A stretch of 64,000 bases of DNA from Frankia sp. AgB1.9 (lineage in GTDB: Bacteria; Actinomycetota; Actinomycetes; Frankiales; Frankiaceae), in the NCBI RefSeq assembly GCF_016786355.1, contig NZ_JADWYX010000038.1, positions 1-64,000 of the forward strand. Reading direction: 5' to 3'. Position numbers and translations under genes: made by a program. The first letter of the stretch is position 1. Each line of letters begins with the position of its first letter. The notes below the pieces were generated by a model. That model searched no databases, was not told the DNA's origin, and saw only the letters and a list, made by a program, of their open reading frames with translations. This document shows positions 3,705 through 49,845 of this stretch, piece by piece.

Positions 3705-3720
3705 GGTAGCGCGCGCTAGT
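3705..3720. promoter_or_regulatory. ACTAG-type palindromic operator
   Basis: GGTAGCGCGCGCTAGT differs at two outer bases from the 16-bp palindrome ACTAGCGCGCGCTAGT seen repeatedly in this window. It ends 28 bases before the GTG of the GH43 gene, where a bound repressor would block transcription. The central CG resembles LacI-family operators. The regulator is not identified. Confidence 0.65.
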
Positions 3721-3748
3721 ATGGCGACATGCGCCCTGGGGGGAAGTC

Positions 3749-5203
3749 GTGAACGTCAACCCGATCCTGCCCGGCTTCTACCCCGATCCCTCGATCTGCC
3801 GGGTCGACGGCGACTACTTCCTCGTGACGTCGAGCTTCGAGTACTTCCCCGGAGTGCCGATCTTCCACAGCACCGACCTCGTCAGCTGGGAGCAGATCGG
3901 CAACGTGCTCGACCGCCCCAGCCAGCTGCACGTGGCCCCGGGCCTCGCGTCGGCGAGCACAGGGATCTTCGCGCCGACCCTGCGCCACCACGACGGGCGG
4001 TTCTGGCTGACGACGACGAACTTCGCCGACGTCCGCCGGGGCCACCTGATCGTCCAGGCGGACGACCCGGCCGGCGACTGGACCGACCCGGTCTACACCG
4101 GCGGCGCGGTCGGGATCGACCCCGATCTGGCCTGGGACGAGGACGGCACCTGCTATCTGACGTGGTGTTTCCCCGGGCAGATCACGCAGGCGGCCGTCGA
4201 CCCCGACAGCGGGAAGCTGCTCTCCGAGCCGCGCGCAGTCTGGAGCGGAACGGGCCTCGCCCACCCCGAGGGACCGCACCTGTTCCGGCGGGACGGCTGG
4301 TGGTACCTCGTTATCGCCGAGGGCGGCACCGACCGGGGGCACGCCGTGTCGATCGCGCGCTCGCGTGCCATCACCGGTCCGTTCACCGGTAACCCCGCCA
4401 ATCCGATCCTCACCCGCGGCGGCACCGAGCACCCGGTCCAGAGCACCGGCCACGCCGACCTGGTCGAGCTTTCCAGCGGCGAGTGGGCGATGGTGCACCT
4501 CGGCGTACGCCCGCGGGGCACCTTCCCCCTGTGGCACGTCAACGGCCGGGAGTCCTTCCTGACCGGCCTCGACTGGGCCGACGGCTGGCCGGTCGTCGTG
4601 GAGGACCGGTTCGCGGTGCCGGTCCGGGACAACGCGTTCACCGACGAGTTCCGCGCGCCGACGCTGCACCCTCGCTGGATCTCGCCTGGGACCGATCCCC
4701 GGACGTTCACCCGCCACCGCCCCGGCGGCGGGCTCGTCATGGCCGCGGGCAGGACGTCCGACGCGGCCGATCGCCTGCTGGCCGTGCGTGCCCGCGACCC
4801 CCATTGGTTGGCCACCGCCGACCTCTCCGACGGCGATGCCTGCCTGACCGTCCGGATCGACGACGCGCACTGGGTCGCCGTGGAGAGGCGCGCGGATGGC
4901 CTCGCTGCCCGGATGGTCGTCGGTCCGCTCAACCAGATCCTCGCAACCGTCACCGGGATCGGGACCGGCGACGCACTCGCCATCCGAGCGGTAGCGCACG
5001 CCGACGCCGCCACGTTCCGCGCCGGCCCCGACCAGCTCGAGCTGGGATACCTGCGCGACGGCGAGTTCTGCCTGCTCGCCACGGTCGACGGCCGCTACCT
5101 CTCCACCGAGGTCGCCGGCGGCTTCACCGGCCGTGTCATCGGCGTCGAAGCCCTGGCCGCCGACGCCACCCTCACCCGCTTCGCCTACCAAGCCCTGGTC
5201 TGA
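3749..5203 (+). CDS. GH43 family beta-xylosidase / arabinofuranosidase-like enzyme
   Basis: A 484-residue intracellular-type enzyme starting at GTG with a GGGGGGAAG ribosome site. The N-terminal five-bladed propeller begins NPILPGFYPDPS with the base Asp13. It carries Asp124 in GIDPDLAW and the general acid Glu174 in HPEGPH, the GH43 catalytic set. The C-terminal part (about 315-484) is a beta-sandwich like the GH43_C2 domain of two-domain xylosidases. There is no signal peptide, so it should act on imported short oligosaccharides or glycosides. Xylosidase and arabinofuranosidase activities cannot be told apart by eye; the araBDA genes later in the window make arabinose release plausible. The operator at 3705 suggests substrate-induced expression. 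Confidence 0.88.
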   Translation: MNVNPILPGFYPDPSICRVDGDYFLVTSSFEYFPGVPIFHSTDLVSWEQIGNVLDRPSQLHVAPGLASASTGIFAPTLRHHDGRFWLTTTNFADVRRGHLIVQADDPAGDWTDPVYTGGAVGIDPDLAWDEDGTCYLTWCFPGQITQAAVDPDSGKLLSEPRAVWSGTGLAHPEGPHLFRRDGWWYLVIAEGGTDRGHAVSIARSRAITGPFTGNPANPILTRGGTEHPVQSTGHADLVELSSGEWAMVHLGVRPRGTFPLWHVNGRESFLTGLDWADGWPVVVEDRFAVPVRDNAFTDEFRAPTLHPRWISPGTDPRTFTRHRPGGGLVMAAGRTSDAADRLLAVRARDPHWLATADLSDGDACLTVRIDDAHWVAVERRADGLAARMVVGPLNQILATVTGIGTGDALAIRAVAHADAATFRAGPDQLELGYLRDGEFCLLATVDGRYLSTEVAGGFTGRVIGVEALAADATLTRFAYQALV

Positions 5204-5643
5204 GGCCCGCGGCTTGACCGGTGCCGATCGCGAAGGTCGGCATCGGGGGAGTGATCGCCGTTTTCGCCCTCTGGTGAACCCTGCTGGCTAATTTGGGCCC
5301 GGAGTCTAGGTGAGGCCTACGTGATGGTGGCGAGTCTCGTCCGTGGTCGACCAGGAGGTATGACGGAAGTCTGATCCAGGCCTCCCGGTGATCGTGAAGG
5401 CGACGCGCGGTGTCGGGACCCTGGATCGTGGGCCCCCGCACCGGTCATGATCGCCGTTTGGGCCCTGGGGTGGTCGTAAGAATGCGCCTGTCACGACCAT
5501 CCGAGGGCCAAAACGGCGATCAAGGCGACGCGCAGCCAGGCTCCGGATGGCCAGCAGGGTCCTACTGGTCGTGAATCGGGCCTTCGTGCGACCACGTCAG
5601 GGCCAAAACTGTGATCAGGTTCGGGACTTGGAGCGGCAGGAGC
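5204..5643. other. Convergent intergenic region filled with repeat copies
   Basis: No gene is supported between the ends of the GH43 gene and the esterase gene. It holds a left arm (5251-5276), a complete 75-bp palindrome (5448-5522) and a right arm (5588-5617). Together these look like one repeat interrupted by another, or an older, larger element. Confidence 0.6.
5448..5522. repeat. 75-bp dispersed palindromic repeat, full copy
   Basis: The left arm begins TGATCGCCGTTTGGGCCC and the right arm ends GGGCCAAAACGGCGATCA. Inner arms read TGGTCGTAAG and TCACGACCA around a loop of about ten bases. The same architecture and length recur at 41917, 46979 and 56498. It has no coding capacity. Flanking single arms lie at 5251-5276 and 5588-5617. 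Confidence 0.85.
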
Positions 5644-6600
5644 TTAGATCGCCAGGGGAGAGGTGAGCCAGGCGGTGAGCCGGTCCAGGCTGCGTTCGCC
5701 GGCCGGCGTGAACGGCTCGTTCAGATGGCCGTGGCGGGAGCCGGGCTCGAACTCGACCCGCACCGGGACGCTCGCCGTGGCCAGCTGCGCCGCGTAGGCC
5801 TCTCCCGAGGCGCGCAGGAAGTCCGCGTCCGAGTTCAGCACGTACACCGGCGGCTGGCCGGCGACGTCGCCGTTGGCGGGGAAGGCGTAGGGATCCGTCA
5901 GTCGCTCGGCGGCGCCGACGTAGTTCAGATCGATCTCCTCGCTCATGTCCGGGGTGAGGAAGAGATCTGCCAGCGCGGCTGTCTTGGCGCTGAGATCCGC
6001 GCTCGCCGCGGGCAGGTGCGCGTGCAGCACGCTGTACGCGAGCAGCAGTGAGGCGGACAGGGGCCCGGCGCCGTCCCGAAGCCGCTTGGTCACCCCGGCG
6101 GCCAGGTTCCCGCCCGCGCTGGCCCCACCCAGATGCAGTCCCGCTGGTTCGGCGCCCAGATCCCCGGCGTTCTCGACCGCCCACAGCCACGCGGCGAGGA
6201 GGTCGTCGGACGGAGCCGGGAAGTGAACGCCGCGCAGGCATTTGCGGTACTCGACCGAAAGCACCGGGACGCCCCGCGACGCGAGGGTCAGGCCGACCCA
6301 GTTCGCCTCCGGCATGTCCAGGTCGCCGGTGACGAAGGCGCCGCCATGTACCCAGACCAGCGCCGAGCCCGTCGTGGGACCCGGTTCCCGGTACAGCCGG
6401 GCCGGCATCCCTCCGGGGCCGTCGATGACCACCTCGGTGACCTCGACCCGGCCCAGCTCCGGATAGTGCGCCGTGAGGGCCGCGGTATCCGGCACCGGCG
6501 GCAGGCGCTCGGCGATCAGCTCGGGGCTCGTCGTCTCCAGGAACCGGACCCAACCGGCGAAGGGCGTCAGGCTCCGCTCGCCGTCAGTCTCTGAGGTCAC
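5644..6600 (-). CDS. HSL-family alpha/beta-hydrolase (esterase)
   Basis: A 318-residue enzyme. The GTG at 6600 is preferred because GGGAGG lies just before it; another GTG at 6612 lacks this. HGGAF (85-89) is the oxyanion-hole motif and GASAGG (159-164) carries nucleophile Ser161. Asp258/260 in NSDADFL and His290 in SRHGHLN complete the triad expected of the hormone-sensitive-lipase group. There is no signal peptide. Such enzymes hydrolyse short acyl esters; next to glycosidases it may remove acetyl or other acyl groups from plant sugars. A palindromic operator lies 40 bases upstream, suggesting it belongs to the same regulon as the glycosidase genes. Confidence 0.85.
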   Translation of the reverse strand: MTSETDGERSLTPFAGWVRFLETTSPELIAERLPPVPDTAALTAHYPELGRVEVTEVVIDGPGGMPARLYREPGPTTGSALVWVHGGAFVTGDLDMPEANWVGLTLASRGVPVLSVEYRKCLRGVHFPAPSDDLLAAWLWAVENAGDLGAEPAGLHLGGASAGGNLAAGVTKRLRDGAGPLSASLLLAYSVLHAHLPAASADLSAKTAALADLFLTPDMSEEIDLNYVGAAERLTDPYAFPANGDVAGQPPVYVLNSDADFLRASGEAYAAQLATASVPVRVEFEPGSRHGHLNEPFTPAGERSLDRLTAWLTSPLAI

Positions 6601-6639
6601 GCTGCCTCCCACGATGAGCCGCTCACGCTAACAGCGAGA

Positions 6640-6655
6640 ACTAGCGCGCGCAAGT
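6640..6655. promoter_or_regulatory. ACTAG-type palindromic operator
   Basis: ACTAGCGCGCGCAAGT matches the window consensus at 15 of 16 positions. It lies 40 bases upstream of the esterase start on the minus strand and downstream of the tetR stop, so the esterase is the target. Confidence 0.7.
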
Positions 6656-6732: not shown

Positions 6733-7320
6733 TCAGATCCTGGCTGGCTGTTCGGCGTGGGCCGGGAGGGCGAGCGCGTGCAGGCCGGCGCGGATCCGGT
6801 CCAGCGGCATACCGCGGGCGGTGTGCAGGTAGTCGACGGCGTCGGCGCGTACGGCGGTGTAGAGGATGTGGCCGAAGTAGTCGGCGTCCACGCCCGGGCG
6901 CGCGGCGGCGACGCGTCGGGTGAGCTCGGCGGTCCAGTGCCGGCTCGCGGGGCTGGTGTAGTAGCCGTTCGGGCCGCTGTGGTCGAGCGCCCGGATGAGC
7001 GAGCGGTTCGCCCAGACAAAGTCGAGCAGGTCGTCGAGATAGGCCAGCAGCGCCGGACCGGGTTCGGTGGGGTCGTTCGCCGGTGTCGGGTCCTTCTCGC
7101 TGCGGAGCAGTGCGGTGGCCCGGCGGGCGAGCACTGCCTCGATCAGCGCGCCGCGGTCGCTGAACCTGCGGAAGAGGGTGCCCTTGCCGACGCCGGCGGC
7201 CTCGGCGATGTCGTTCATCGACACCGTGCCGGCGTCCGTGCGGTCGAACAGGTCGGCCGCCGCGGTCAGGATGGCCTCCCGGTTGCGCGCGGCGTCGGCT
7301 CGTTCCCGGCCGGCAGTCAT
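6733..7320 (-). CDS. TetR-family transcriptional regulator
   Basis: A 195-residue protein from ATG at 7320. The longer frame to 7554 would run across the promoter. The N-terminal DNA-binding domain is clear, with AEAAGVGKGTLFRRFSDRGAL as the helix-turn-helix at about residues 38-58. The remainder is a helical ligand/dimer domain. It is transcribed divergently from a Gfo/Idh dehydrogenase, and two copies of the palindrome CGGACCGSCGGTCCG lie between the genes. This suggests autoregulation and control of the neighbour. The same palindrome lies before two other operons here (14584 and 42168), so this protein is the best candidate regulator for all three. The ligand is unknown, probably a catabolic intermediate. 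Confidence 0.88.
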   Translation of the reverse strand: MTAGRERADAARNREAILTAAADLFDRTDAGTVSMNDIAEAAGVGKGTLFRRFSDRGALIEAVLARRATALLRSEKDPTPANDPTEPGPALLAYLDDLLDFVWANRSLIRALDHSGPNGYYTSPASRHWTAELTRRVAAARPGVDADYFGHILYTAVRADAVDYLHTARGMPLDRIRAGLHALALPAHAEQPARI

Positions 7321-7356
7321 CAGCGCAGCTCCTCTTCGGTGGCGACGGTTGCCAGT

Positions 7357-7402
7357 CGGACCGCCGGTCCGTATCGTATCCACTAAGCGGACCGGCGGTC
7401 CG
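7357..7402. promoter_or_regulatory. Double TetR operator in the divergent promoter
   Basis: Two 15-bp palindromes, CGGACCGCCGGTCCG (7357-7371) and CGGACCGGCGGTCCG (7388-7402), have centres 31 bases apart and flank GTATCGTA, a possible -10 element. They sit between tetR and the plus-strand dehydrogenase gene. The same layout recurs before the luciferase-like gene at 42322. Confidence 0.75.
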
Positions 7403-7534
7403 AGATTGCGGGTTCGGACTCTGATTGTCGCTGGCGCCGGCGCCAGGTCGGCGGCCGCAGCCGTGACCCGTGCCGCCAGCCGCCGTCGACGACGGTTTCC
7501 GACAGTGCACCTGCGTCCACCGGGAGGATCTGCG

Positions 7535-8596
7535 ATGTCGCTCCGGTGGGCCATCGCCGGCGCCGGCGAGGTCGCTCATGGGTTCGCCGTGGCCCTCGGC
7601 CGGGTGCCCGACGCTGAGCTGGTGGCCGTCGGGTCCCGCGATCCGGTGGCGGTGGAGGACCTCGGCGCCCGGTTCGGCGTGCCGCGGCGACGGAGGTACG
7701 GCTCCTACGAGGAGCTCGCGGCGGACGACGGCGTCGACCTCGTCTACGTGGCCACGCCCTCGTCCCACCACCACCGTCACACAGTGCTGTTCCTGAACGC
7801 CGGGCGCGGGGTGCTGTGCGAGAAGCCGTTCGCCGTGGACGCCGCCCAGGCCGGCGAGATGGTGGCGACGGCTCGCGAGCAGGGCCGGTTCCTGATGGAG
7901 GCGATGTGGAGCCGTTTCCTGCCGGCCTACGTGCGGCTGCGGGAGCTGGTAGCCGCCGGCTCGATCGGCACCGTTCTCGGGGTCGACGGTGATTTCGGCC
8001 TGCGGTTTCCCTCGTTGGCGGGCCACCGCCTGTTCGATCCGGCCGAGGGCGACGGCGCCCTTCTCGACCTGGGCGTCTACCCGGTCTCGCTGGCCAGCAT
8101 GCTGCTCGGCGAACCCGACCGGGTAAGCGCGCTCGGCGAGCGGGGCTCCGCCGGAGTCGACGAGCATGTCGCCGTCCTCATGAACTACCGGCAGGGCGCG
8201 GTGGCGATCGCTCGCGCGTCGCTGCGGGTCAGCCTCGGCTGCACCGCCAGGATCTTCGGTTCCGACGGAAGCATCGAGCTGCCCGCGTTCATGCACTGCC
8301 CGGACGAGCTGGTGCTGCGGGGCCGGTCCGGCACCCAACGGCTGCACCTGCCGGCGGCCAGCGACAACGCGGACTCCGGGCATCTGGGCGGCAGCGGGCC
8401 CGGCGGCGGCCTGCACCACCAGATCCGCCATGTGCACGACCGGCTGCGGGCCGGGCAGCTGGACAGCGACGTCATGCCGCTCGCGGAGTCCGTCTCGGTG
8501 ATGCGCACCCTCGACGCCGCCCGCGCCCACCTCGCGCTGCGCTACCTCGACGCCGACCTCGGGGTCCCCCACCCACGGGCGGCCGCTGGCAGGTGA
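7535..8596 (+). CDS. Gfo/Idh/MocA oxidoreductase, dihydrodiol/xylose dehydrogenase-like
   Basis: A 353-residue enzyme starting at ATG 7535 after GGGAGG. The N-terminal Rossmann domain has GAGEVA (residues 9-14), and EKPF (96-99) supplies the conserved lysine. MEAMWSRFLP resembles the motif of dimeric dihydrodiol dehydrogenase and NADP-dependent xylose dehydrogenase; LLDLGVYP is the substrate-domain motif. Members oxidise sugars or trans-dihydrodiols with NAD(P). It is closely similar to the enzyme at 31595-32620. It leads a run of co-directional genes (VOC protein, hydrolase fusion, SDR, EthD fusion) and is divergent from tetR with shared operators. Substrate class is not decided by sequence. 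Confidence 0.85.
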   Translation: MSLRWAIAGAGEVAHGFAVALGRVPDAELVAVGSRDPVAVEDLGARFGVPRRRRYGSYEELAADDGVDLVYVATPSSHHHRHTVLFLNAGRGVLCEKPFAVDAAQAGEMVATAREQGRFLMEAMWSRFLPAYVRLRELVAAGSIGTVLGVDGDFGLRFPSLAGHRLFDPAEGDGALLDLGVYPVSLASMLLGEPDRVSALGERGSAGVDEHVAVLMNYRQGAVAIARASLRVSLGCTARIFGSDGSIELPAFMHCPDELVLRGRSGTQRLHLPAASDNADSGHLGGSGPGGGLHHQIRHVHDRLRAGQLDSDVMPLAESVSVMRTLDAARAHLALRYLDADLGVPHPRAAAGR

Positions 8597-8654
8597 GCGG
8601 CGACATGGCGACGCGGCCGCGATGGCGGTCGGCGAATGGACTGGGAGGTCGTGG

Positions 8655-9221
8655 GTGACGACGACTAGGCCTTCGGGCGATCTGGAGAACACTCGAACGC
8701 GCCTGCGGCGCATGCACCACATCGCTTACGTCGTCAAGGACCAGGACGCGACCCGTCGTTTCTATGAGGACGTCGTCGGGCTGCCGCTGATGGCCGTCTG
8801 GGCGGAGGCCGGCGAGTTCTCGGAGTTCCCCGGCCGGACGATCGAGTTCTGTCACACGTTCTTCGGCCTGGGTGACGGCTGCGCGCTCGCGTTCTTCGCC
8901 TTCGCGGACGAGGACGTCTACGAGGCCTACAAGGCGCGGACGCAGACCGGTTTCTTCCATCCCGCCGTCGCGGTGAGCGGGGACGAGCAGGAGCGGATGC
9001 GAGAGCGGCTGACGGCCGCGGGGTTCGCTCCGTTCGAGATCGACCACGGGTACTGCCAATCCCTCTACGTGCACGATCCGGATGGCCTGGTGCTGGAGTT
9101 CACCAGGGATCCCGACGACGCGGCCGCCCTCGGCGCGTGGCAGGCCGAGACGGCCCGCGTGACCCTGTCGCGGTGGCTGAGCGGCGACCGCACGCCGAAC
9201 AACGACTTACGTCGCCGGTAA
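8655..9221 (+). CDS. VOC-family (glyoxalase/dioxygenase-like) protein
   Basis: A 188-residue product from GTG at 8655, six bases after GGGAGG; an earlier in-frame ATG at 8622 lacks such a site. MHHIAYVVKDQDATRRFYED opens the first beta-alpha-beta unit and gives a metal-binding histidine. SLYVHDPDGLVLEFTRD closes the second with a glutamate, as in vicinal-oxygen-chelate enzymes. The family includes glyoxalases, extradiol dioxygenases and epimerases, so the reaction is not fixed. It sits between a dehydrogenase and a hydrolase in a probable catabolic operon. Confidence 0.78.
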   Translation: MTTTRPSGDLENTRTRLRRMHHIAYVVKDQDATRRFYEDVVGLPLMAVWAEAGEFSEFPGRTIEFCHTFFGLGDGCALAFFAFADEDVYEAYKARTQTGFFHPAVAVSGDEQERMRERLTAAGFAPFEIDHGYCQSLYVHDPDGLVLEFTRDPDDAAALGAWQAETARVTLSRWLSGDRTPNNDLRRR

Positions 9222-9240
9222 GGCCACGAAGGAGCCCGCA

Positions 9241-11010
9241 TTGAGTCAGACCCCACCGACGTTCGCGGGCAGGAGCACGTTCCTGCACGGGTTCGCCCGC
9301 CGTGACGACGAGACCGCGCCCGGCATTCAGCCGTCGACCTGGTGGGGTTCGACGGATCTCGTCCTACCTGAAGGCACGAACGAGACGATCGTGCGGTTAC
9401 AGGCCGCCGACGGCGCCCACTCGCGCGGAATTCTCTACCGCCGGGGACCCGAGACCACGGTCGTCGTTTTCAATCACCCTCGCGCCGACTTCAGCTGCCA
9501 CTACCTGATCCCGTCGCTGGTGGCGGCGGGGTACGCGGCCTTCGGCGGCCAGGGGCGCAATCTCGGCAACGACATCGACTGCGTCCACGAGTACCTTCTC
9601 GCCGACCTGGCAGCCCAGATCGGCTACCTGCGCCGGCAGGGGTTCGAGAAGGTACTGCTCTGTGGGAACAGCGGTGGTGGCAGCCTCTCGACCTTCTACC
9701 AGGCCCAGGCCACCACCAAACCTCCAGGCCGCCTCACCGCGACACCGGCCGGTGATCCCTATGACCTCAACACGATCGACCTCCCGCCGGCCGACGGCCT
9801 GATTCTGCTGGCCGCCCACATCGGTGAAGGAGCCTTCGCGCTCGACAACCTCGACCCTTCCGTCATCGACGAGAACGACCCGTTGTCGTGCGATCCGACG
9901 CTGGACATGTACAACCCGGCCAACGGCTACCGCAGGCCACCCGAGGTCAGCAGCTACTCGCCGGAGTTCGTCGAGCGGTACCGGGCCGCGCAGCGGGCCC
10001 GCGTTACGCGACTGGACGCCGTAGCCCGGCAGGACATCGCCCGCCGCCGCCGCTACCGCGAGCTGATGGCCAGGTGGGACTTCCGTGACCGGCCGCTCGA
10101 CGAGCAGCTGCACATCACCCGCCTGGCCACCACATCGCGCTATCTCACGATCGCGCGCGTGGCGGCGAACCCGAGCTACACGGACCTGTCGATCGATCGG
10201 TCCCACCGGACGATCAGCACACTGCTGGGTCCCGACCCGCACACCGCGAACTACAAGCTCGGCGGCTTCGCGTCGGTCATGACGCCCGAAGGCTGGCTGT
10301 CGACGTGGTCCGGCCAGGCGACCCGGGCCTCGGTCCTCGCGAACATCACGAACGTCACCGAGCCCACGCTCGTCATCAGCTTCGACGCGGACGCCGGAAT
10401 CCTGCCGCACGAGGCGCGGAGCATCTTCGACCGGGCGGGCGCCGAGGACAGGGAACTCGGCCACGTCGACGCCAATCACTATGGACTCGCGCGGACCGAG
10501 CCACGGGAAGCTCCCATCGTCGAGGCCGGAAACCTGATCGTCCGCTGGCTGAAAGCCCGTTTCCCAGCGGCAGGCGCACCGGAGACGGCTGATTCTCCGA
10601 ACGTGGCGGTCGTGAAGGAGTACTTCCGCCGCGGCGACGCCCGAAGTGCAGACGTGCTCGACCTGTTCACCGAGGACGTCGAGTTCTTCTTCCCCAAGCA
10701 CGGTGTCGGCCATGGCAAGGCGGAGTTCATCGCGTTCGCCGCCGGCCTGCGGGACTCGGTCTACGTCCTGCACGACCAGGAGACGATGACGTTCCTTGAG
10801 AACGGATCGCGGGTCGTCGTGGAAGGCACAACGTACGGGCACGACTCGGAAGGCTCGAAATGGCAGGGTGCCGTGACGCCCGGCGGCCGGTTCTGCAGCG
10901 TCTTCGAGATTCGCGACGGCCTGATCGCGCGGAACTACATCTACGCCGATCCTGACTACACGAGCCGCCACGCCGAAGGATTTCGCTGGGGCCTGGACCG
11001 GCAGTGGTGA
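9241..11010 (+). CDS. Alpha/beta-hydrolase fused to a SnoaL-like domain
   Basis: A 589-residue protein; the frame starts at TTG 9241 behind GAAGGAG. Residues about 50-440 form an alpha/beta-hydrolase with the elbow CGNSGGGS (Ser144), an Asp in SFDADAG and a His in VDANHYG. Residues about 448-589 (VAVVKEYFRRGDARSADVL to the end) form a SnoaL/NTF2-like cone. The SnoaL fold serves isomerases, cyclases and hydrolases of polyketide- and steroid-like compounds. The fusion suggests two consecutive steps on one substrate, such as ester or C-C hydrolysis followed by isomerisation. The position inside the TetR-linked operon supports a catabolic role. Confidence 0.75.
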   Translation: MSQTPPTFAGRSTFLHGFARRDDETAPGIQPSTWWGSTDLVLPEGTNETIVRLQAADGAHSRGILYRRGPETTVVVFNHPRADFSCHYLIPSLVAAGYAAFGGQGRNLGNDIDCVHEYLLADLAAQIGYLRRQGFEKVLLCGNSGGGSLSTFYQAQATTKPPGRLTATPAGDPYDLNTIDLPPADGLILLAAHIGEGAFALDNLDPSVIDENDPLSCDPTLDMYNPANGYRRPPEVSSYSPEFVERYRAAQRARVTRLDAVARQDIARRRRYRELMARWDFRDRPLDEQLHITRLATTSRYLTIARVAANPSYTDLSIDRSHRTISTLLGPDPHTANYKLGGFASVMTPEGWLSTWSGQATRASVLANITNVTEPTLVISFDADAGILPHEARSIFDRAGAEDRELGHVDANHYGLARTEPREAPIVEAGNLIVRWLKARFPAAGAPETADSPNVAVVKEYFRRGDARSADVLDLFTEDVEFFFPKHGVGHGKAEFIAFAAGLRDSVYVLHDQETMTFLENGSRVVVEGTTYGHDSEGSKWQGAVTPGGRFCSVFEIRDGLIARNYIYADPDYTSRHAEGFRWGLDRQW

Positions 11011-11090
11011 CCGCTCGGTCCCCGGAGGCGCCCGGGTCGTCGACCCCGGCCTCTGCCCAGCCCGCCCACAGGCCCTCACGAGGGAGACAC

Positions 11091-12059
11091 ATGGAAGCGA
11101 TGCGGTTCGACGGACGGGTGGCCATCGTGACCGGCGGCGGGCGGGGGATGGGGCGGGCGCACTGTCTGGAGCTCGCCGGCCGCGGCGCCAGGGTCGTCGT
11201 CAACGACCTCGGCGCCGCGCTCGACGGGTCGGGATCGTCGTCGGCCGTCGCCGAGGAGGTCGTGGCGGAGATCCGGGCAGCCGGCGGGGAGGCGGTCGCG
11301 AGCAGCGACAGTGTCACCACCGAGGAGGGGGCGGCGGCGATCGCGCGGACCGCGCTCGACGCCTTCGGCCGGATCGACGTGCTCGTCCACAATGCCGGGA
11401 CGGTCACCTACGCGCCGTTCGCCGAGCTGACGTATGAGCAGTACCGCCGGCTCCTCTCGGTCCACCTCGACGGCGGCTTCCTCATGGCCAAGGCGGTATG
11501 GCCGCACATGCAGGCGGCCGGCTACGGCCGGCTGGTCTTCATCACCTCGCAGGCGGCACTGGGCGGAACACCCAACCTTGCCCACTACGGCGCGGCGAAG
11601 ACCGGTCTGGTGGGGCTGTCGCGGGTGCTCTCGATCGAAGGAGCCGAGCACGGCATCCGGTCGAACGCACTCGGCGTCGCGGCCTACACCCGGATGATGG
11701 AGGGCTTCTTCGCCCCGACCGACGAGAACCGGCCGGACGTCGTTCGCAGTGAAGGCGAGAACTGGTGGCGCCGCTATCTTCGCCCGGACATCGTCGCGCC
11801 CGTCGTCGCGTTTCTCGCGCACGAACAGTGCCCGCTGTCCGGCGAGATCCTCGACACCTGTGGGGGGCACACGTCCTTCCAGTTCCTCGCGACCACCCAG
11901 GGATTCTGCGACCTCGACCTGACGGCCGAATCGCTGCGCGACCACCTGGACACCGTCCTCGACCCGGCGGCCTACGAGATCTTCCATCCCGCCACCGGGC
12001 TCCTCGAATGGCGCAACAGCAAGCTGCGCGAGGTAGGAGCCGGCCTCACCACGACCTGA
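11091..12059 (+). CDS. Short-chain dehydrogenase/reductase
   Basis: A 322-residue enzyme from ATG 11091, after AGGGAG. It has the classical SDR signatures: TGGGRGMG (14-21) for the dinucleotide, HNAG (100-103), and the catalytic set Ser153, Tyr166 and Lys170 in SQAAL...YGAAK. The C-terminal part (about 250-322) is longer than usual for a 250-residue SDR, as in steroid/hydroxyacyl-CoA types such as those resembling MFE-2. It should oxidise or reduce an alcohol/ketone in the pathway encoded by the neighbouring genes. Its start follows the hydrolase-SnoaL stop by 80 bases. Confidence 0.85.
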   Translation: MEAMRFDGRVAIVTGGGRGMGRAHCLELAGRGARVVVNDLGAALDGSGSSSAVAEEVVAEIRAAGGEAVASSDSVTTEEGAAAIARTALDAFGRIDVLVHNAGTVTYAPFAELTYEQYRRLLSVHLDGGFLMAKAVWPHMQAAGYGRLVFITSQAALGGTPNLAHYGAAKTGLVGLSRVLSIEGAEHGIRSNALGVAAYTRMMEGFFAPTDENRPDVVRSEGENWWRRYLRPDIVAPVVAFLAHEQCPLSGEILDTCGGHTSFQFLATTQGFCDLDLTAESLRDHLDTVLDPAAYEIFHPATGLLEWRNSKLREVGAGLTTT

Positions 12060-12124
12060 CCCGCGCCGCGTGCACCGTTGCGGGGGTCACGCCCGGCCGA
12101 AAATTCGAGGGGAAGAACAGGGCG

Positions 12125-12976
12125 ATGTTGAAAGTGATGCTGCTGCTGAAGCGCAGACCGGGGCTTTCGCTGGCGGAGTTCATCGACCGCTACGAGAGTG
12201 GCCACGTCCCGGCCGCGGAGCGGAACGCCACCACGCTACGGCGCTATGAGCGGCACTACCTGCACCCCGGCGGACACCTCCTGTTCGGAGACGAGGTGGC
12301 CGAGCCCGAGTACGACGTCATCACCGAGCTCTGGTACGACGACCTGGCCGCGTTCACCGCCGTCGAGGACGGCCTTCGCCGCCAGCCCGAACGCGTCGCG
12401 GCCATCGTCGCGGACGAGGAGTCGCTGTTCGACCGTTACAGGAGCCGGCTGGTGTTCGTCGAGGACCGCGTCTCGAACCTCCCCGCCGGCGGAGCCACGC
12501 TCGCGGGCGACTCCGAGCGGGCGCTACGCCGCCTCCTGGACAAGGACGAGATCGTCGACCTGGTTCATCGCTACTCCTACCTCGTCGACCACCGGCTCCA
12601 CGACCAGCTCGCGGACCTGTTCACCGAGGACTGCGTCGTCGACTACGGACCGGCCGTCGGCCCGGCGCGGCACGGCCGACCGGCGCTGCGGGCGATGTTC
12701 GGCGACAGCACCGACCCGCGGGGCTTTCTCGCCACCAGCCATCACAACGCGAACGTCCTCGTGACCTTCGACGGCAACGACCGCGCCGTCGTTCTCACCT
12801 CGGTCTACGCCTGGCACCAGGCGCCACAGGGCGCCACGCCTCGGGTCTGGGGCTACTACCACGACGTCGCGGTGCGGACCGTGGACGGCTGGCGGCTGGC
12901 CGAACGTCAACTACGCGTGGCAGGCACCGAGCACTGGCCCGGCGAATGGCACCCACTGGCCCCCACCAAGGGATAG
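12125..12976 (+). CDS. EthD-like domain fused to SnoaL-like domain
   Basis: A 283-residue protein from ATG 12125 after GAGGGGAAG. The N-terminal ~115 residues (KVMLLLKRRPGLSLAEFIDR...GHVP) match the EthD dimeric alpha/beta-barrel type. Residues about 135-270 (DKDEIVDLVHRYSYLVDHR...LFTEDCVVDYG) match a SnoaL-like cone. EthD-like barrels act in degradation clusters as small lyase/isomerase or helper proteins. Together with the preceding hydrolase-SnoaL fusion, it gives this operon two unusual SnoaL fusions. No specific reaction can be assigned. Confidence 0.72.
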   Translation: MLKVMLLLKRRPGLSLAEFIDRYESGHVPAAERNATTLRRYERHYLHPGGHLLFGDEVAEPEYDVITELWYDDLAAFTAVEDGLRRQPERVAAIVADEESLFDRYRSRLVFVEDRVSNLPAGGATLAGDSERALRRLLDKDEIVDLVHRYSYLVDHRLHDQLADLFTEDCVVDYGPAVGPARHGRPALRAMFGDSTDPRGFLATSHHNANVLVTFDGNDRAVVLTSVYAWHQAPQGATPRVWGYYHDVAVRTVDGWRLAERQLRVAGTEHWPGEWHPLAPTKG

Positions 12977-13078
12977 GCCGAGTGAGCGCGAGTTACCTCG
13001 GTACCGACGAGCGGGCGATCACCTGTGGTATGAAGCCGCTGAACGCTCCGGATTTTCTGTGGCTTTTGGCGGCATCGG

Positions 13079-13094
13079 GTTTGCGCGCTCTAGT
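13079..13094. promoter_or_regulatory. Weak ACTAG-type operator
   Basis: GTTTGCGCGCTCTAGT agrees with the consensus at 12 of 16 positions, with one good half-site. It lies about 175 bases upstream of the solute-binding lipoprotein gene. Weaker than the other sites and possibly chance. Confidence 0.35.
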
Positions 13095-13269
13095 TTCCCT
13101 TGGTAGCGTGCGCGACCAGCACGTACCCGGCACCCGTAGCGGGCCGGAGTGCGTATGAGCCGCCATGCCGTCGCGGCTTTCCAACGAGGCCGTCCTCCGG
13201 GTGGGTCGGCCACGCCTGATCGGGGCTGGGCGTACTGCTGGGGCCCCTTTCCATAGTTGAGGGAAAGAC

Positions 13270-14484: not shown

Positions 14485-14549
14485 GCAGCCGGAACCCGGG
14501 AGGACCCGTGCGGGCGACAGCCGGGTGAGAACTGCCCGCCGACCGGTAG

Positions 14550-14598
14550 CGGACCGCTGGTACGGTTAGCGCCGGACTCGATCCGGACCGGCGGTCCG
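14550..14598. promoter_or_regulatory. TetR operator pair before luciferase-like gene
   Basis: CGGACCGGCGGTCCG (14584-14598) is identical to a site at the tetR promoter. CGGACCGCTGGTACG (14550-14564) is a 13/15 match, with centres 34 bases apart. The block ends 35 bases before the start at 14634. Confidence 0.7.
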
Positions 14599-14633
14599 AA
14601 CCGTCGACGGGTCTCGTGCGGGAGGGAGGCGTG

Positions 14634-15494: not shown

Positions 15495-15625
15495 CACCGG
15501 CACTATTCCGCCCCGGGTGCTGTCAACCATCCGAAGCCGGTAACACGCGTCCGCGAGCGCGACACCCGCTTTGACGTCCTGTGCGGACCTTCGGAGTCTC
15601 GTTCTCATGGTGAAGGGACAGCCTC

Positions 15626-16744: not shown

Positions 16745-16820
16745 ACCGCGATCCCCACGTAGCGCGAGCCCCACCCTCGCTACTTTCATCGACCCGATGA
16801 CCAAAGGAACGGACGTCTCG

Positions 16821-17828: not shown

Positions 17829-17844
17829 CGACGAGGAGGCAACG

Positions 17845-18747: not shown

Positions 18748-18779
18748 GCGGGGCGTCCCAGGTTCCAGCGCACCTGTGA

Positions 18780-18827
18780 GGCTGGCCGGCAACCAGCCTG
18801 GACGGCTGCGCTGGTTGCCGGCCAGCC
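18780..18827. terminator. Strong hairpin between convergent genes
   Basis: A perfect 17-bp inverted repeat, GGCTGGCCGGCAACCAG and its complement, encloses a 14-nt loop. It stands between the ends of the propeller gene and the DUF5605-type gene, so it can stop transcription from both sides. There is no T-run, as often in high-GC actinobacteria. Confidence 0.7.
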
Positions 18828-18888
18828 CGACGGCCTCGCCTGTTGCCGCACGACGACGCGGGTTCGGCCGAGGTGCGTCGGTGGCCGT

Positions 18889-22640: not shown

Positions 22641-22682
22641 CTTGCTCCTCCAGCTGCCGGCACCATCGCCGGCCTAGGGCTG

Positions 22683-32801: not shown

Positions 32802-32828
32802 GGCTCTGGTGAAGGCTAGCAGTCTGAT

Positions 32829-32844: not shown

Positions 32845-32922
32845 GGAGCCGATCGTCACCTAGAGTGATTGAGTGGGGTCACGTCGGAGGTGGCCGACCG
32901 GTTCGGCGGCCGGACGCCTGGT

Positions 32923-32938
32923 ACTTGCGCGCACTAGT
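32923..32938. promoter_or_regulatory. ACTAG-type palindromic operator
   Basis: ACTTGCGCGCACTAGT matches 14 of 16 consensus bases. It ends 41 bases before the chosen rhamnosidase start, a position fit for repression. Confidence 0.68.
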
Positions 32939-32979
32939 TCCCGCCGTTAGCGTCGCTCCTCGCTAGTGGAGTGGTGTCG

Positions 32980-39249: not shown

Positions 39250-40532
39250 TCTTGGCCGCTCTCCTTCGTCGAATCGTTGGTGGTGCGCGGCAGGTGCTCC
39301 TGGACGGGAATCAGCGAGGTCCCGCCGACCGGCCGGCAGAGGTGAACGACGCCGTCCCGTCCGGTCGCGGCGCGATAGCCACGGAGGACCGCCTCGGTGA
39401 ACGTGTCGGCCGAACGGGCGTCGATCAGCGCGATGACGCAGCCGGCGAAGCCGCCGCCGGTCATCCGGGCGCCGTGGCAGCCTGGAGCGGTGCGGCAGGC
39501 GGCGACGGCCGCGTCGAGCTCGGGGCCGCAGACCTCGAAGTCGTCGCGCAGGGACCGGTGACCGTCGAGCAGCACCGCCCCGGCGTGCGCGAGGTCCGAT
39601 CGCAGCAGCGCGGCGACGACCTCCTGGACCCGGGTGTTCTCGGTGACGATGTGCCGAGCCCGGCGCAGCTCCACCGGATCGAGGCGGTCCGCCGCGTCGG
39701 CGGGCAGGCGGTCCGCGAGGTCGCGCAGGCTGTCGACGCCGAGCCGGGCGGCGGCGCGCTCGCATTCGGCGCGGCGTTGGCCGTAGGCGCTGGTCACCAG
39801 GTCACGGCGGGTACCGGTGTCCACGATCGCCACGACCACCGAGTCCGGCACCGCGACCGGGAGCGTCGTGAGGTCGCGGAAGTCGATCCGCAGTGCGTGG
39901 CCGGCCGTCGAGGTGGCGCAGGCCAGCTGGTCGAGCAGCCCGGTCGCGGCGCCCACCCAGTGGTTCTCCGCCCGGTGGGCAAGCCTGGCCGCCTCGACCG
40001 GGTCCCAGTCCTGCCGCCAGGTGACCGCGCAGGCGCGGGCGACGGCGAGCTCCAGGGCGGCGGACGACGACAGCCCCGCCCCGGCCGGCAGGTCGCTGGC
40101 CAGCGTCCCGAACCACCCTCGGGACGCGTCCGCGCCTGCTTGGGACGCGCCTGCGCCCGCGGCGGACCCCATGGCCGCGACCACGCCCTCGACGTACCCG
40201 GTCCAGCCGGCCTGCGCCCGCGCCGCCCGGCCTGGCGGACCGGACGCGGACAGCACGGGTGGCGGCAGGTGAACGCGTGCCGGCGCATCGCGATCCTCGG
40301 AGAACACCTCGATGAGGGCGGCAGCCTCATCCGTCGGCTCCGCCGGGCTGAACGCGAGGCACAGCTCCAGGCCGACGGCCACCGGCAGGCAGAGCCCGTC
40401 GTTGTAGTCGGTGTGCTCGCCGATCAGGTTCACCCGGCCCGGCGAGCGCACCAGATAGCGGGGCGCGGCGCCGAAGGTTTCGACGAACGCCGCCACGGCC
40501 CGCCGCGCGGCGTCCGGAGCCTCGGCCGTCAC
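39246..40532 (-). CDS. galK: Galactokinase
   Basis: A 428-residue GHMP kinase that phosphorylates galactose at C1. GRVNLIGEHTDYNDG is the galactokinase signature, and LPAGAGLSSSAALE is the phosphate-binding loop. The third motif, MTGGGFAGCVIALI, lies near the end. The start overlaps the stop of galT (ATGA) and its stop overlaps the beta-galactosidase start, giving a tightly coupled unit. An alanine-rich stretch (AGAGASQAGADA) between strands is a lineage insertion. GalE is not present in the window. Confidence 0.95.
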   Translation of the reverse strand: MTAEAPDAARRAVAAFVETFGAAPRYLVRSPGRVNLIGEHTDYNDGLCLPVAVGLELCLAFSPAEPTDEAAALIEVFSEDRDAPARVHLPPPVLSASGPPGRAARAQAGWTGYVEGVVAAMGSAAGAGASQAGADASRGWFGTLASDLPAGAGLSSSAALELAVARACAVTWRQDWDPVEAARLAHRAENHWVGAATGLLDQLACATSTAGHALRIDFRDLTTLPVAVPDSVVVAIVDTGTRRDLVTSAYGQRRAECERAAARLGVDSLRDLADRLPADAADRLDPVELRRARHIVTENTRVQEVVAALLRSDLAHAGAVLLDGHRSLRDDFEVCGPELDAAVAACRTAPGCHGARMTGGGFAGCVIALIDARSADTFTEAVLRGYRAATGRDGVVHLCRPVGGTSLIPVQEHLPRTTNDSTKESGQE

Positions 40533-41686
40533 GACGACCTCGCGACGGCGCGCAGCATCGCCGCCGCCCGCTCCGGGGTGATGTCGCGCTGGGCGCCGGC
40601 GAGCATCTCGTAGCCGACGAGGAACTTCCGGACGGAGGCCGACCGGAGCAGCGGCGGATAGAAGTGCGCGTGCAGCTGCCAGTGGTCCCGCGCGCCCGAC
40701 CGGGTTTGGGTCGAGTCCGCGCCTGTGGGCCCAGGCGCGCCGTGCCAGCCCATCGAGTACGGGAACGGCACCCCGAACAGACCGTCGTAGGCCGCCAGCA
40801 AGGCCCGGATGATCGCGACTAGGCTGCCTCGCAGTTCGTGGTCCAGCTCCGGGAGGCTCGCGACGGGGCGGACGGGGACGAGCATGGTCTCGAACGGCCA
40901 GACGGCCCAGTACGGCACGACCGCGAGCCAGTCACTGTTCGCGGCCACGACCCGTTCGTCTTTGGCGCGTTCGACCTCGGCGTAGTCGACCAGCAGGCGT
41001 CGGCCGTGTCGGCGCAGGTAGTCGAGCTGGCGGGCGTCCTCGGCGGCGGGCTCGTCGGGCAGCGAGGCGCTGGCCCAGACCTGGCCGTGCGGATGCGGGC
41101 TGGAGGCCCCCATCGCGGCACCCCGGTTCTCGAAGATCTGGACCCACCGCCACTGCCGGCCGAGTTCGGTGGCCTGGTCGATCCACGTGTCGACGACCGC
41201 GCCCAGCTCGCCGTCGGACATCGCGGCGAGGTGCCGGTCATGGCGCGGGCCGAAGCACAGCACCCGGCAGACACCAGCCTCCGGCTCGGACCGCAGCAGC
41301 TCGCCGACATCGAGGCCGCCGGCTGTGGGCGTGGACGCCGCGCGCCGGTCCTGCTCAGTGGGAGGACGGTCGGCGTCGGGCCGCAGGGCCGGGAAGTCGT
41401 TGGCGAACACGTGCGGGCCGACGTAGGCGGGATTCCGGATCTCGGATCCGGCACGGTCGCCCGGATTGCCGAGGTTGCGGAGGTTGCCGGGGCACAGCGG
41501 GCACGTCGCGTCGTGGCTCGCGACCTCTGGCGGGCTGACAGCCTGACTGTCACCGGACCACGGCCGTCGATCCCGGCCGGCGGACACCAGAATCCACCTG
41601 CCCCGCAGCGGGTCGAACCGCCGGTGCGACGGCGGGGGAGTGTCAGACGGCTCTCCACCCGGCGGGTAAGGGGCCGGCGGGTGCAC
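40529..41686 (-). CDS. galT: Galactose-1-phosphate uridylyltransferase
   Basis: A 385-residue enzyme from GTG 41686, first gene of the galT-galK-lacZ operon. SSPHPHGQVW carries the HPH triad with the uridylylated histidine, and CPLCPGN in the N-terminus resembles the metal-binding cysteines. GWHGAPG and HWQLHAHFYPPLLRSA are the C-terminal signatures. It exchanges UMP between UDP-glucose and galactose-1-phosphate in the Leloir pathway. A palindromic operator lies at 41789, 103 bases upstream, suggesting control together with the rhamnosidase and GH43 genes. Confidence 0.94.
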   Translation of the reverse strand: MHPPAPYPPGGEPSDTPPPSHRRFDPLRGRWILVSAGRDRRPWSGDSQAVSPPEVASHDATCPLCPGNLRNLGNPGDRAGSEIRNPAYVGPHVFANDFPALRPDADRPPTEQDRRAASTPTAGGLDVGELLRSEPEAGVCRVLCFGPRHDRHLAAMSDGELGAVVDTWIDQATELGRQWRWVQIFENRGAAMGASSPHPHGQVWASASLPDEPAAEDARQLDYLRRHGRRLLVDYAEVERAKDERVVAANSDWLAVVPYWAVWPFETMLVPVRPVASLPELDHELRGSLVAIIRALLAAYDGLFGVPFPYSMGWHGAPGPTGADSTQTRSGARDHWQLHAHFYPPLLRSASVRKFLVGYEMLAGAQRDITPERAAAMLRAVARSS

Positions 41687-41788: not shown

Positions 41789-41804
41789 GCTAGTGCGCGC
41801 TAGT
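41789..41804. promoter_or_regulatory. ACTAG-type palindromic operator
   Basis: GCTAGTGCGCGCTAGT matches 14 of 16 consensus bases. It precedes galT on the minus strand, 103 bases from its start. Confidence 0.68.
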
Positions 41805-47114: not shown

Positions 47115-49703
47115 TCAGGCCGTGTATTCGTGAGTTCCGGGGCCAACGACGTGTTCCGTGCCGTTCGGTAGCCGCACGTCGGCGGTGGTGTTCGGTGGAA
47201 GGGTCACCGTCAGCTGGATGTCCGTGCCGGTTCGGGTCCAGGCGCTCGCCACCGTGCCGTAGACGCTGGTGTACGTAGCTCGCGCGGACGTCAGGCTGCC
47301 GCCCGGCACCGGGGCGATGGTGAAGTGGTTCTCCCCGGTGACGCGCAGGCCGGCGACCGTGTCGAACAGCCACTGGCAGACGGCGCCGGGGGAGTAGTGG
47401 TTCCGGCTTTCCTTGCCCTCCCAGTCCTCCCAGACGGTCGTCGCGCCCGCCCTGACCTCGGCGAGCCAGCTCGGCGCGTCCTCGTTCTCCAGCATCCGGT
47501 AGGCGAGATCGGGGTGACCGGCCGCGGTGAGCGTCGGCAGCACGAACGGCGTCGACAGAAAACCGGTGTTGACGTGGAAGTCCCGGTTCTTCACCGCCTG
47601 CACGAGCCGGTCCTGCAGGCGGCGCCTCACGTCGCCGTCGGCGAGGCCCAGCGCGAGGGGGCGCACGAGCTTCGCCTGCCGGTCGGTGTCGAGAGTGCCG
47701 TCGCGCAGGAACTGGTGCGTGTAGGCCGCCTTCGCGCCCTGGGCGTACTCGGCGAACAGGTCCGCGTCCGCGGTCTCGCCGAGCACGGTCGCGATCTCGG
47801 CCAGGTGCGTCATCGTGTAGTGCAGATAGGCCGTCGCCTCTTCGGGCATCGGCGTGCGGCCGGGGGACGGATCGCGGAACTCGGCCGCCTCCAGCCAGTC
47901 GCCGAGGTGCACGCCCTTCTCGTACAGGTATTGCGCGTGCGGGTTGTCGGCGGCGGCCTCGGGGTCGATCGGGCCGGCGTTCGTGATCATGAACATCGCG
48001 TAGCGGCGCATCGCGTCGTAGCAGTCGTGCAGGATGCTCTCGTCGCCGTAGCGCTTCCAGTACCGGTAGGGGATGAGCACGACCGCGTCGGCCCACCCGA
48101 CGGAGCTGCCGGTGGTGTCATAGAGCATCGAGGCGCCGTTGTAGGGGATGACGGCCGACAGCTTCCCGTCGGCGAGCTGCCCGTCGCGGACATCCCGCAG
48201 CCATTTGCGGAAGAACGCGCCGACGTCCATCAGGTAGGCGGCCGTGTCGAAGAAGACCTGGGCGTCGCCGGTCCAGCCGAGACGCTCACGGGTCGGGCAG
48301 TCCGTGGGCACGTCGAGGAAGTTGCCCTTCATGCTCCACCGGGTGTTCTCCAGGAACCGGTTGATTCCCTCGTGCGAGGTGACGAACGTTCCGGTCTGCT
48401 CCATGGCGGAGTACACCGCGATCGCCCCGAAGTCCGCCGGGTCGAGGTCGAGGTCGGTCTCGACGAGGGCGTAGCGGAACCCGAAGACGGCGAAGCGGGT
48501 CACGTAGTGGTCGGTGCCGCCGCTGGCGGTGAAAACGATCTCCTGCTTGGGCGTGGGCTGCAGCTCGCCCTTGATCTCGCTCTCCTGGCCGGTGATGAGG
48601 AGGATCTCGACGTCGCGGCCGAACTCGTTCACGGGCTTGCGTAGCTGGAAGTTCCGCTGGGTGAACTCGCCGGTCTCGTCGAGGATCTCGCCCAGCCGCA
48701 GGGTGAGCCGCTGGCCCGCACGTCCCGAGACCGTGAAGGCGACGAACCCGGCCAGGTTCTGCCCGAAGTCGAGGACGCGCGCCCCGCTCGGGGTCGTCAG
48801 CAGTCGGGCGGGGAATCGCTCGTGCTCGGACGGCATGACGTTGTCGGCCGCGGTGGGGATCATCGCCTCGGTCGTGACCCGGGCCTGGCCTGAGTAGCTC
48901 GGCGAGAGCCTGGCGTCGTAGACCTCGCCGTCCTGCAGGTCGGCGAACCGCACCGGGCCGTCGTCGCTCCACCGGAACCGGTCATCGCTGCTGACGGTCT
49001 CCGTGGAGCCGTCCGGATACGTCAGCTCCAGCTGTACCAGCAGCTTGGTCTCGCGGCCGAACACGTGCGTGACCCCGAACGCGCCGAGCGACCCGCGATA
49101 CCAGCCGTCGGCGAGCCGCACCTCCAGCACGTTGTCCTCGCCGAGCAGGCTCGTCACGTCGAAGGTCTGGTAGTGCAGGCGGTGGCGGTAGTCGGTGGCA
49201 CCGGGAGCGAGACGGACCTCGCTGACCGGCTCGCCGTTCAGCGAGACCTCGTAGACGCCTGCCGCGGTGATGTACAGGCGGGCGGCCAGGACCGGCTCCC
49301 GTACGCGGAAGTCGCGACGGAAGTGGTCGACCGGGTAGCGAACGTCGCGTTCGGGCGTGTAGTCACCGGTGATCCACTCGGCCGTCCAGTCGGCCGGGTC
49401 GAGCAGTCCCAGCTCGAACCACGACTCGGCGGGCGGTCCCGCGACGTCGGCCTCGTCCCAGAGCACGACCGACCAGTCCACGCGATCGCGGCTGCCCAGC
49501 GGGACGCCCTCGTAGCGGACGTGGGTCATGCGTGACGAGGCGACCTTGCCGGTGTCCCACACCGTCTCGCCGCCGCGGCGCGCGACGACCTGGTAGGCCG
49601 TCTGCCGCAGGCCGCCGTCCGCGTTCCAGTAGAGGCGGGGCGCGGTGATCCCCAGGCCGAGCGGCTCGGTCAGGTACTCGGTGCGCAGCCGGATCGCTCT
49701 CAT
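47115..49703 (-). CDS. GH78 alpha-L-rhamnosidase, second copy
   Basis: An 862-residue intracellular enzyme from ATG 49703. Compared with the enzyme at 32980 it has an extra N-terminal fibronectin-like domain (IRLRTEYLTEPLGLGITAP, then LYWNADG), before the two beta-sandwiches (GVYEVSLNGEPVSEVRLAPG). The (alpha/alpha)6 barrel carries VPTDCPTRERLGWTGDAQVF near residue 467, the GH78 hallmark, and the end lacks the helical tail of the other enzyme. It should cleave rhamnosides with different aglycone or linkage preference. Two palindromic operators lie between it and the divergent PhyH-like gene. Confidence 0.9.
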   Translation of the reverse strand: MRAIRLRTEYLTEPLGLGITAPRLYWNADGGLRQTAYQVVARRGGETVWDTGKVASSRMTHVRYEGVPLGSRDRVDWSVVLWDEADVAGPPAESWFELGLLDPADWTAEWITGDYTPERDVRYPVDHFRRDFRVREPVLAARLYITAAGVYEVSLNGEPVSEVRLAPGATDYRHRLHYQTFDVTSLLGEDNVLEVRLADGWYRGSLGAFGVTHVFGRETKLLVQLELTYPDGSTETVSSDDRFRWSDDGPVRFADLQDGEVYDARLSPSYSGQARVTTEAMIPTAADNVMPSEHERFPARLLTTPSGARVLDFGQNLAGFVAFTVSGRAGQRLTLRLGEILDETGEFTQRNFQLRKPVNEFGRDVEILLITGQESEIKGELQPTPKQEIVFTASGGTDHYVTRFAVFGFRYALVETDLDLDPADFGAIAVYSAMEQTGTFVTSHEGINRFLENTRWSMKGNFLDVPTDCPTRERLGWTGDAQVFFDTAAYLMDVGAFFRKWLRDVRDGQLADGKLSAVIPYNGASMLYDTTGSSVGWADAVVLIPYRYWKRYGDESILHDCYDAMRRYAMFMITNAGPIDPEAAADNPHAQYLYEKGVHLGDWLEAAEFRDPSPGRTPMPEEATAYLHYTMTHLAEIATVLGETADADLFAEYAQGAKAAYTHQFLRDGTLDTDRQAKLVRPLALGLADGDVRRRLQDRLVQAVKNRDFHVNTGFLSTPFVLPTLTAAGHPDLAYRMLENEDAPSWLAEVRAGATTVWEDWEGKESRNHYSPGAVCQWLFDTVAGLRVTGENHFTIAPVPGGSLTSARATYTSVYGTVASAWTRTGTDIQLTVTLPPNTTADVRLPNGTEHVVGPGTHEYTA

Positions 49704-49788
49704 CGCCTGCCCTGTTCGTCGCTGGACGTCGGGCCGCTGACGGCCGACGGCGGTTTTCCCGTGGTCCTCGTGCGAAGATCCGGTTACA

Positions 49789-49804
49789 ACTAGCGCCCGC
49801 TAGT
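49789..49804. promoter_or_regulatory. ACTAG-type palindromic operator, best match
   Basis: ACTAGCGCCCGCTAGT matches 15 of 16 consensus bases; only one central base differs. It lies 86 bases before the second rhamnosidase gene and faces the divergent PhyH-like gene. Confidence 0.72.
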
Positions 49805-49829
49805 GTGACGGTGAAGCTACCAGCGGCTA

Positions 49830-49845
49830 GCTAGAGCGGGCAAGT
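49830..49845. promoter_or_regulatory. ACTAG-type operator, second in pair
   Basis: GCTAGAGCGGGCAAGT matches 12 of 16 consensus bases, 41 bases from the stronger site, suggesting cooperative binding over the divergent promoter. Confidence 0.55.

Follow-up and report, generated by a model that had tools for sequence, protein, structure and literature searches.

The stretch analysed here, which we call the window, comprises the first 64,000 nucleotides of contig NZ_JADWYX010000038.1 (C210) of Frankia sp. AgB1.9, and in its intergenic DNA a 16-bp palindrome, ACTAGCGCGCGCTAGT, recurs near the starts of genes related to sugar metabolism. The genes behind its copies encode a GH43 enzyme, an esterase, Gfo/Idh proteins, two GH78 rhamnosidases, GalT and a PhyH protein, and a GH116 region lies behind the weak copy at 25096. 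The sites and the hexamers next to them are listed below, with scores (in bits) from a matrix described further on and with the fraction of bases kept in a related genome, G001; the positions of the −10-like hexamers were checked and their promoter function is predicted.

3705-3720, no strand: putative operator GGTAGCGCGCGCTAGT, 29 bp before the GH43 gene (3749-5203, +); 16.5 bits; 15/16
6629-6634, +: −10-like TAACAG, 11 nt before the mixed site at 6640
6640-6655, +: putative mixed operator ACTAGCGCGCGCAAGT, 28 bp before the esterase gene (5644-6612, −) and 412 bp before a Gfo/Idh gene (7067-8596, +); 26.6 bits; 15/16
25096-25111, no strand: weaker putative operator CGTAGCGCGTGCTAGT, 215 bp before the gene at 22683-24881 (−) and 395 bp before the split GH116 gene (25506, +); 12.8 bits; no match in the G001 stretch
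32786-32801, no strand: degenerate ACTAACGCGTATTAGA, possible distal partner of 32829 (43 bp); −9.2 bits, unsupported alone
32817-32822, +: −10-like TAGCAG, 12 nt before 32829
32829-32844, +: putative mixed operator ACTAGCGCGGGCAAGT, 127 bp before the GH78 rhamnosidase gene (32971-35511, +); 23.5 bits
32923-32938, −: putative mixed operator, 33 bp before the same GH78 gene (32971, +) but oriented to the Gfo/Idh gene at 31595-32620 (−), 303 bp away; 17.5 bits; 16/16
32944-32949, −: −10-like TAACGG, 11 nt before 32923 on the minus strand
41789-41804, no strand: putative symmetric operator GCTAGTGCGCGCTAGT, 103 bp before galT (40529-41686, −); 16.5 bits; 16/16
49789-49804, no strand: putative distal symmetric operator ACTAGCGCCCGCTAGT, 86 bp before the second GH78 gene (47115-49703, −); 18.8 bits; 15/16
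49818-49823, +: −10-like TACCAG, between the paired sites 49789 and 49830
49830-49845, +: putative proximal mixed operator GCTAGAGCGGGCAAGT, 41 bp from 49789 and 124 bp before the PhyH gene (49969-51186, +); 12.0 bits; 16/16

The palindrome is a real repeated element. Allowing up to three mismatches to ACTAGCGCGCGCTAGT, we recovered seven places in the window (3705, 6640, 25096, 32829, 32923, 41789 and 49789), whereas 100 shuffled controls gave 0.45 on average and never more than 2. The site at 49830 carries more than three mismatches, yet scores 12.0 bits with a matrix built from other bacteria. An earlier note on the window had listed these eight sites and placed them all between genes, and both statements are borne out, with intergenic status judged by our own gene calls based on third-position G+C. 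Of the weaker sites it added, 13079 and 25226 are recovered as weak places (6.0 and 5.1 bits), and 32786 is not upheld, although its distance from 32829 is a spacing met elsewhere.

Across the 9.79 Mb of the genome (278 contigs), ACTAGCNNNNGCTAGT with at most one mismatch occurs at 10 places (three in C210, four in C228 and one each in C18, C33 and C246), so the element is not evenly spread, even spread being the outcome that the earlier note had named as refuting. This count was limited to one mismatch as two or three give many scattered matches. A reversed-pattern control gave more matches than the pattern itself (107 compared to 52, and 1013 compared to 111), but in our judgement this reflects the abundance of a common GATC-type word in the reversed string, and control stretches took its place.

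The matrix was built from perfect-core sites that precede LacI-type regulators outside Frankiaceae with phenylalanine at recognition-helix residue 22 (F22, in Escherichia coli LacI numbering), and comprises 50 sites, 27 of them different (24.5 bits), with 77 loci from named genomes behind it. At 8 bits or more it finds 21 places in 183 kb of Frankia sp. AgB1.9 contigs (C210, C228, C54 and the first 20 kb of C18), 20 of which are intergenic, the other (C228:37606) falling within a called gene that may have been started too far upstream. Applied to 387 kb of further DNA from the same genome, it finds three, all in five stretches picked for pattern matches, and the remaining 15 control stretches (300 kb, unselected) hold none at either 8 or 5 bits. 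Most of the sites found in this way have CG at their centre (other centres include CC at 49789 and C228:26089, and TG at C18:9966), and the element thus has the form of a LacI-family operator, a palindrome centred on CG.

Two LacI-family genes are encoded on C228, and both have the same kind of site closely upstream, as the earlier note had suggested one should look for: P0001 (22383-23390, +) follows sites at 22292 and 22336, and P0002 (25002-26057, −) follows sites at 26089 and 26046. Both are LacI-family transcription factors by their domains, with 48.0 and 50.8 bits, respectively, for the LacI helix–turn–helix (PF00356; cut-off 27) and 99.6 and 103.2 bits for Peripla_BP_3 (cut-off 26.5). 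C18 encodes a third paralogue, P0003 (10182-11171, −), next to the site at 9966, which precedes a Peripla_BP_6-like gene. Identity to P0002 is 61% for P0001 and 59% for P0003, and all three have a helix of the form GVSR[AT]TVG[FY]VLN, which reads SRATVGFVLN in both P0001 and P0002 (R17, A18 and F22). The genome has seven LacI profile matches above the family cut-off and one below. The window's own LacI protein has a different recognition helix and stands by ATGTTAGCGCTAACAT, found exactly at 61852-61867 between araA and the LacI gene, where the earlier note had assigned it a separate site; this is a probable arabinose operator.

Very probably, the palindromes are operators of the LacI-family repressors P0001 and P0002, which would belong to the same glycoside island on another contig. 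The case is made by the LacI genes with their own sites, the co-occurrence of site and regulator, the enrichment found with the matrix, the adjacency of C228 and C210 in G001, the spacing of paired sites and the placement of −10 hexamers. The earlier note had considered one regulator outside the window or an atypical one inside; regulation does appear to come from outside, but there are probably two or three LacI paralogues instead of one.

In G001 the C228 block ends at 4239350 and the C210 block starts at 4239369, so both adjoin in one island, and the 80 kb compared encompass both LacI genes and most window targets. Sites there precede GH2/TetR, both LacI genes, GH1, two periplasmic-binding-protein genes, GH43, the esterase, Gfo/Idh with GH78, galT and the second GH78. 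Those that BLAST aligns keep 15 or 16 of 16 bases; 25096, 25226, 32786, 32829 and 13079 are unaligned in the G001 stretch, which nevertheless carries ACTAGCGCGAGCAAGT before its GH78 gene as the counterpart of 32829. Three of these places (13079, 25096 and 25226) lie in window blocks that have no collinear match in the 80 kb. The same comparison bears on whether a regulator inside the window, ROK (28233-29423) or XRE/MLTR (53070-54005), binds the palindromes instead. Both are regulators by Pfam and sit among the targets, but nothing collinear with the ROK block is present in the G001 stretch (the stretch in which ROK was sought) while sites outside that block persist there, and the palindrome precedes the LacI subgroup in many actinobacterial families, which leaves this alternative highly improbable.

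Conservation reaches beyond G001. In Pseudofrankia sp. BMG5.36 (G005, L088), ACTAGCGCGCGCTAGC stands 11 bp ahead of a GH43 gene whose product is 82% identical; in G008, ACTTGCGCGCACTAGT lies 31 bp before the gene of a 75%-identical PhyH, and the upstream site is also kept at a PhyH of 82% protein identity. These distant cases are better evidence of conservation than G001. Among 58 genomes, the Frankia sp. AgB1.9 genome (G000) included, 10 have full-length relatives of P0002 with at least 63% identity (G000, G001, G003, G005, G006, G008, G014, G017, G020 and G023). Exact ACTAGCNNNNGCTAGT occurs in nine of these 10 and in none of the other 48, and in the tenth, G017, the LacI gene (L038) is preceded by the variant ACTAGCACGTACTAGC. 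In G001, G003, G005 (two copies), G006, G008, G020 and G023, the P0002 orthologue has a perfect palindrome 31-80 bp ahead of its matched start. When all regulators with F or Y at residue 22 are taken together (71, that is, the 77 loci minus six whose helix ends in SH, SR or SY), 62 have at least one site of at least 5 bits upstream, near-copies included; an earlier locus comparison had left out 14 of the 77, 12 at 33% identity or less and two that are partial (L153 and L156). Regulator genes and presumed targets are thus preceded by the same putative operator, as in an autoregulated regulon, with the exception of P0003.

The arrangement of the sites points to how they may act. Before regulators, 40 of 44 neighbouring pairs are spaced 36-45 bp from start to start, often about 42 bp, with a distal site that is mostly symmetric (CTAG/CTAG) and a proximal one that is mixed (CTAG/CAAG), the CAAG half being nearest the gene. 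In 30 of 40 pairs a TANNNT hexamer precedes the proximal site, its first base 11 or 12 nt away, and in the scanned Frankia sp. AgB1.9 contigs all 12 mixed sites have TA 11 or 12 nt upstream (background 2.5%), including 6640, 32829, 49830 and, on the minus strand, 32923. Two operators flanking a −10 hexamer would likely form a promoter clamp. The palindromes are multi-copy, as a mobile repeat or terminator-like element would be, but they hold a fixed place relative to −10-like hexamers and precede one regulator subgroup in distant genera, and we give that explanation next to no credence. At 32817-32949, the predicted promoters of GH78 (+) and Gfo/Idh (−) face each other across roughly 110 bp, so that their leaders would be antisense.

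From the computed positions, pairing, conservation and co-occurrence of the sites with the LacI subgroup, we infer binding, repression, start sites and an inducer as follows. A repressor dimer on each palindrome would block the promoter; at paired sites one would cover the −35 region and the other begin near +1, leaving the −10 hexamer in between, and two dimers roughly four helical turns apart would repress sterically. The inducer may be a glycoside or a sugar released from one, and induction would switch on glycosidases, esterases, transporters and oxidoreductases together. P0001 and P0002 would also repress their own genes.

Both repressors might share all operators and differ in inducer, in which case only the release of both would open a promoter, or they might form mixed dimers. 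This addition to the two-repressor reading is consistent with their identical SRATVGFVLN helix, with the same kind of paired site before each and with the retention of both in G001, but their similar pockets could mean simple redundancy and mixed sites need no two proteins: family f36 has a single match at E 1e-70 or better in all 20 genomes with a match, and mixed sites in 15 of the 20 loci. We regard it as possible, if rather unlikely. The gene-proximal half of the proximal site is nearly always CAAG, F22 regulators included, and the idea that mixed half-sites require F22–Y22 mixed dimers was dropped, as f36 genomes with a single match bear them.

The recognition helix falls outside the published TVSR code. 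In Camas et al. 2010 (PMC2978694), residues 15, 16 and 20 (17, 18 and 22 in LacI) are tied to half-site bases from autoregulatory sites, the code is limited to TVSR regulators, and R20 is tied to G at NT-6. Our case shares with that text a link between helix residues and half-site, and mixed half-sites, which are discussed there; unlike in it, the helix of P0001-P0003 reads TVGF or TVGY and the sites carry T at NT-6, while F tends to be matched by A and Y by T at NT-5. The closest solved relatives of the DNA-binding part by sequence are CcpA structures (PDB 3oqo and 1zvv), with SMATVSRVVN where P0001 and P0002 have SRATVGFVLN and with two fewer residues after the recognition helix.

Residue 22 was compared with the half-site in 84 regulators (68 F and 16 Y, near-copies partly included; six of 90 were left out as their helix ends in SH, SR or SY). 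Of the F22 regulators, 58 have CTAG-bearing sites, two have CTTG only and eight lack a candidate site, compared to none, 11 and five, respectively, of the Y22 regulators; of the two F22 exceptions, L108 is a far, poor match and L094 a true exception. The raw Fisher test (p 3e-11) ignores kinship. The tree requires six residue changes and yields three independent contrasts, of which on average 2.8 run as expected, none the other way and 0.2 show no difference (sign test, p 0.25), and searching 393, 398 and 298 further genomes brought more regulators but still three independent F22/Y22 contrasts. The pairing of Phe22 with CTAG and of Tyr22 with CTTG half-sites is therefore only suggestive and unproven. 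A wider proposal, in which a widespread actinobacterial LacI subgroup combines a residue-22 code outside the TVSR rules, a paired-operator clamp (symmetric at −35, mixed at +1) and, in Frankiaceae, paralogues acting as a multi-inducer gate over a plant-glycoside island, is one we put forward tentatively, with somewhat more doubt than confidence.

Several observations weigh against our interpretation of the sites as operators of P0001 and P0002. The contigs scanned with the matrix had been selected because of matches, and the matrix was trained on sites chosen by motif core, so that it is independent of the window DNA but not of the motif. P0003 (L227) has no site upstream, and neither do nine of the 71 related regulators. 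The G001 blocks are mostly 92-96% identical and the site flanks are nearly as conserved as the sites, which makes that comparison weak on its own. TANNNT also, or instead, lies at −16 in 11 of 40 promoters; 49789/49830 is the sole good pair among the window sites, so the clamp is not general there; and the mixed site C228:23526, before GH1, points away from GH1, which weakens the notion that mixed operators are always oriented to the gene they would control.

On C228, the genes behind sites encode GH1, two GH3, GH2, ABC, Peripla_BP_6 and TetR proteins, some only as likely members of predicted operons. In other genera they encode MFS transporters, GH3, GH78, GH2 and GH1, with single cases of FAD_binding_2, an epimerase and AP_endonuc_2. 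The earlier note had proposed joint control of enzymes for rhamnose, galactose and pentose glycosides; its window targets stand, but the set is wider, as the island adds transporters, GH1, GH2 and GH3 outside the window. What these genes have in common would be a role in taking up and cleaving plant-type glycosides. Among the island's binding proteins, several (on C228 and at window 13270-14484) are of the Peripla_BP_6 family, the branched-chain amino acid type, which is not usually associated with glycosides. A saponin-type substrate was considered from the glycosidase, Rieske, P450 and CoA-transferase genes, but nothing identifies the substrate; the main text of a glycoalkaloid paper (PMC9597252) contains LacI zero times.

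Two GH78 genes lie near sites, and no rhamnose catabolic gene is among that part of the genes behind sites that was annotated. Rodionova et al. 2013 (PMC3870299) describe RhaR of Actinomycetales, a LacI-type regulator with a 20 bp motif, as co-regulating L-rhamnose uptake and catabolism. The likeness lies in the LacI family, the actinobacterial host and rhamnose-containing oligosaccharides among the targets; unlike for RhaR, the targets annotated in our case encode glycosidases and transporters that serve several sugars. The local LacI-family regulons of Ravcheev et al. 2014 (PMC4052901) are alike in regulator family, palindromic site and sugar-gene targets and differ from the large multi-sugar island with several paralogues seen here; CTAG and Frankia have zero occurrences in the main text of that paper. 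In the open-access literature we found no paper on the operator of this subgroup, with RegPrecise and supplements outside the search and an earlier prediction there possible; by exact letters, CTAGCGCGCTAG appeared only in two papers on other subjects and ACTAGCGCGCGC in none. A LacI regulon is a known kind of system; what makes this one a variant is that its operator and helix depart from the TVSR code, that the −10 hexamer holds a fixed place relative to paired operators, and that several paralogues have one helix.

Further features of the island were noted. The GH116 gene (25506-28254) is split into an N part (25506-26579) and a catalytic part (26638-28254) in adjoining frames, and is either a frameshifted gene or an assembly fault. 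Window blocks 8597-15609 (glyoxalase, SnoaL, SDR) and 16717-29457 (apiosidase-like, GH116, ROK) have only paralogous and no collinear matches in the island stretch of G001. The ends that meet in G001, window 1-3690 and C228:1-5950, carry extra DNA here (a group II intron maturase fragment at window 247-912, an ankyrin gene and a Clp_N gene), perhaps from an insertion that broke the island in two. At C187:68789/68846 and C36:10477/10665 of G000 there is another kind of paired palindrome, of the GCTTGCAAC..GC[AT]AGC type and without central CG, which is perhaps another regulator's site.

This work names candidate regulators and a candidate operator for a large glycoside island, and provides a site that can be scanned for in genomes for a regulator subgroup of many actinobacterial families. 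The relation between Phe or Tyr at one residue and one half-site base offers a natural test bed for a LacI code beyond TVSR, and whether rhamnose, galactose and pentose glycosidases are under common control can now be tested directly, as two proteins and a few DNA fragments would suffice.

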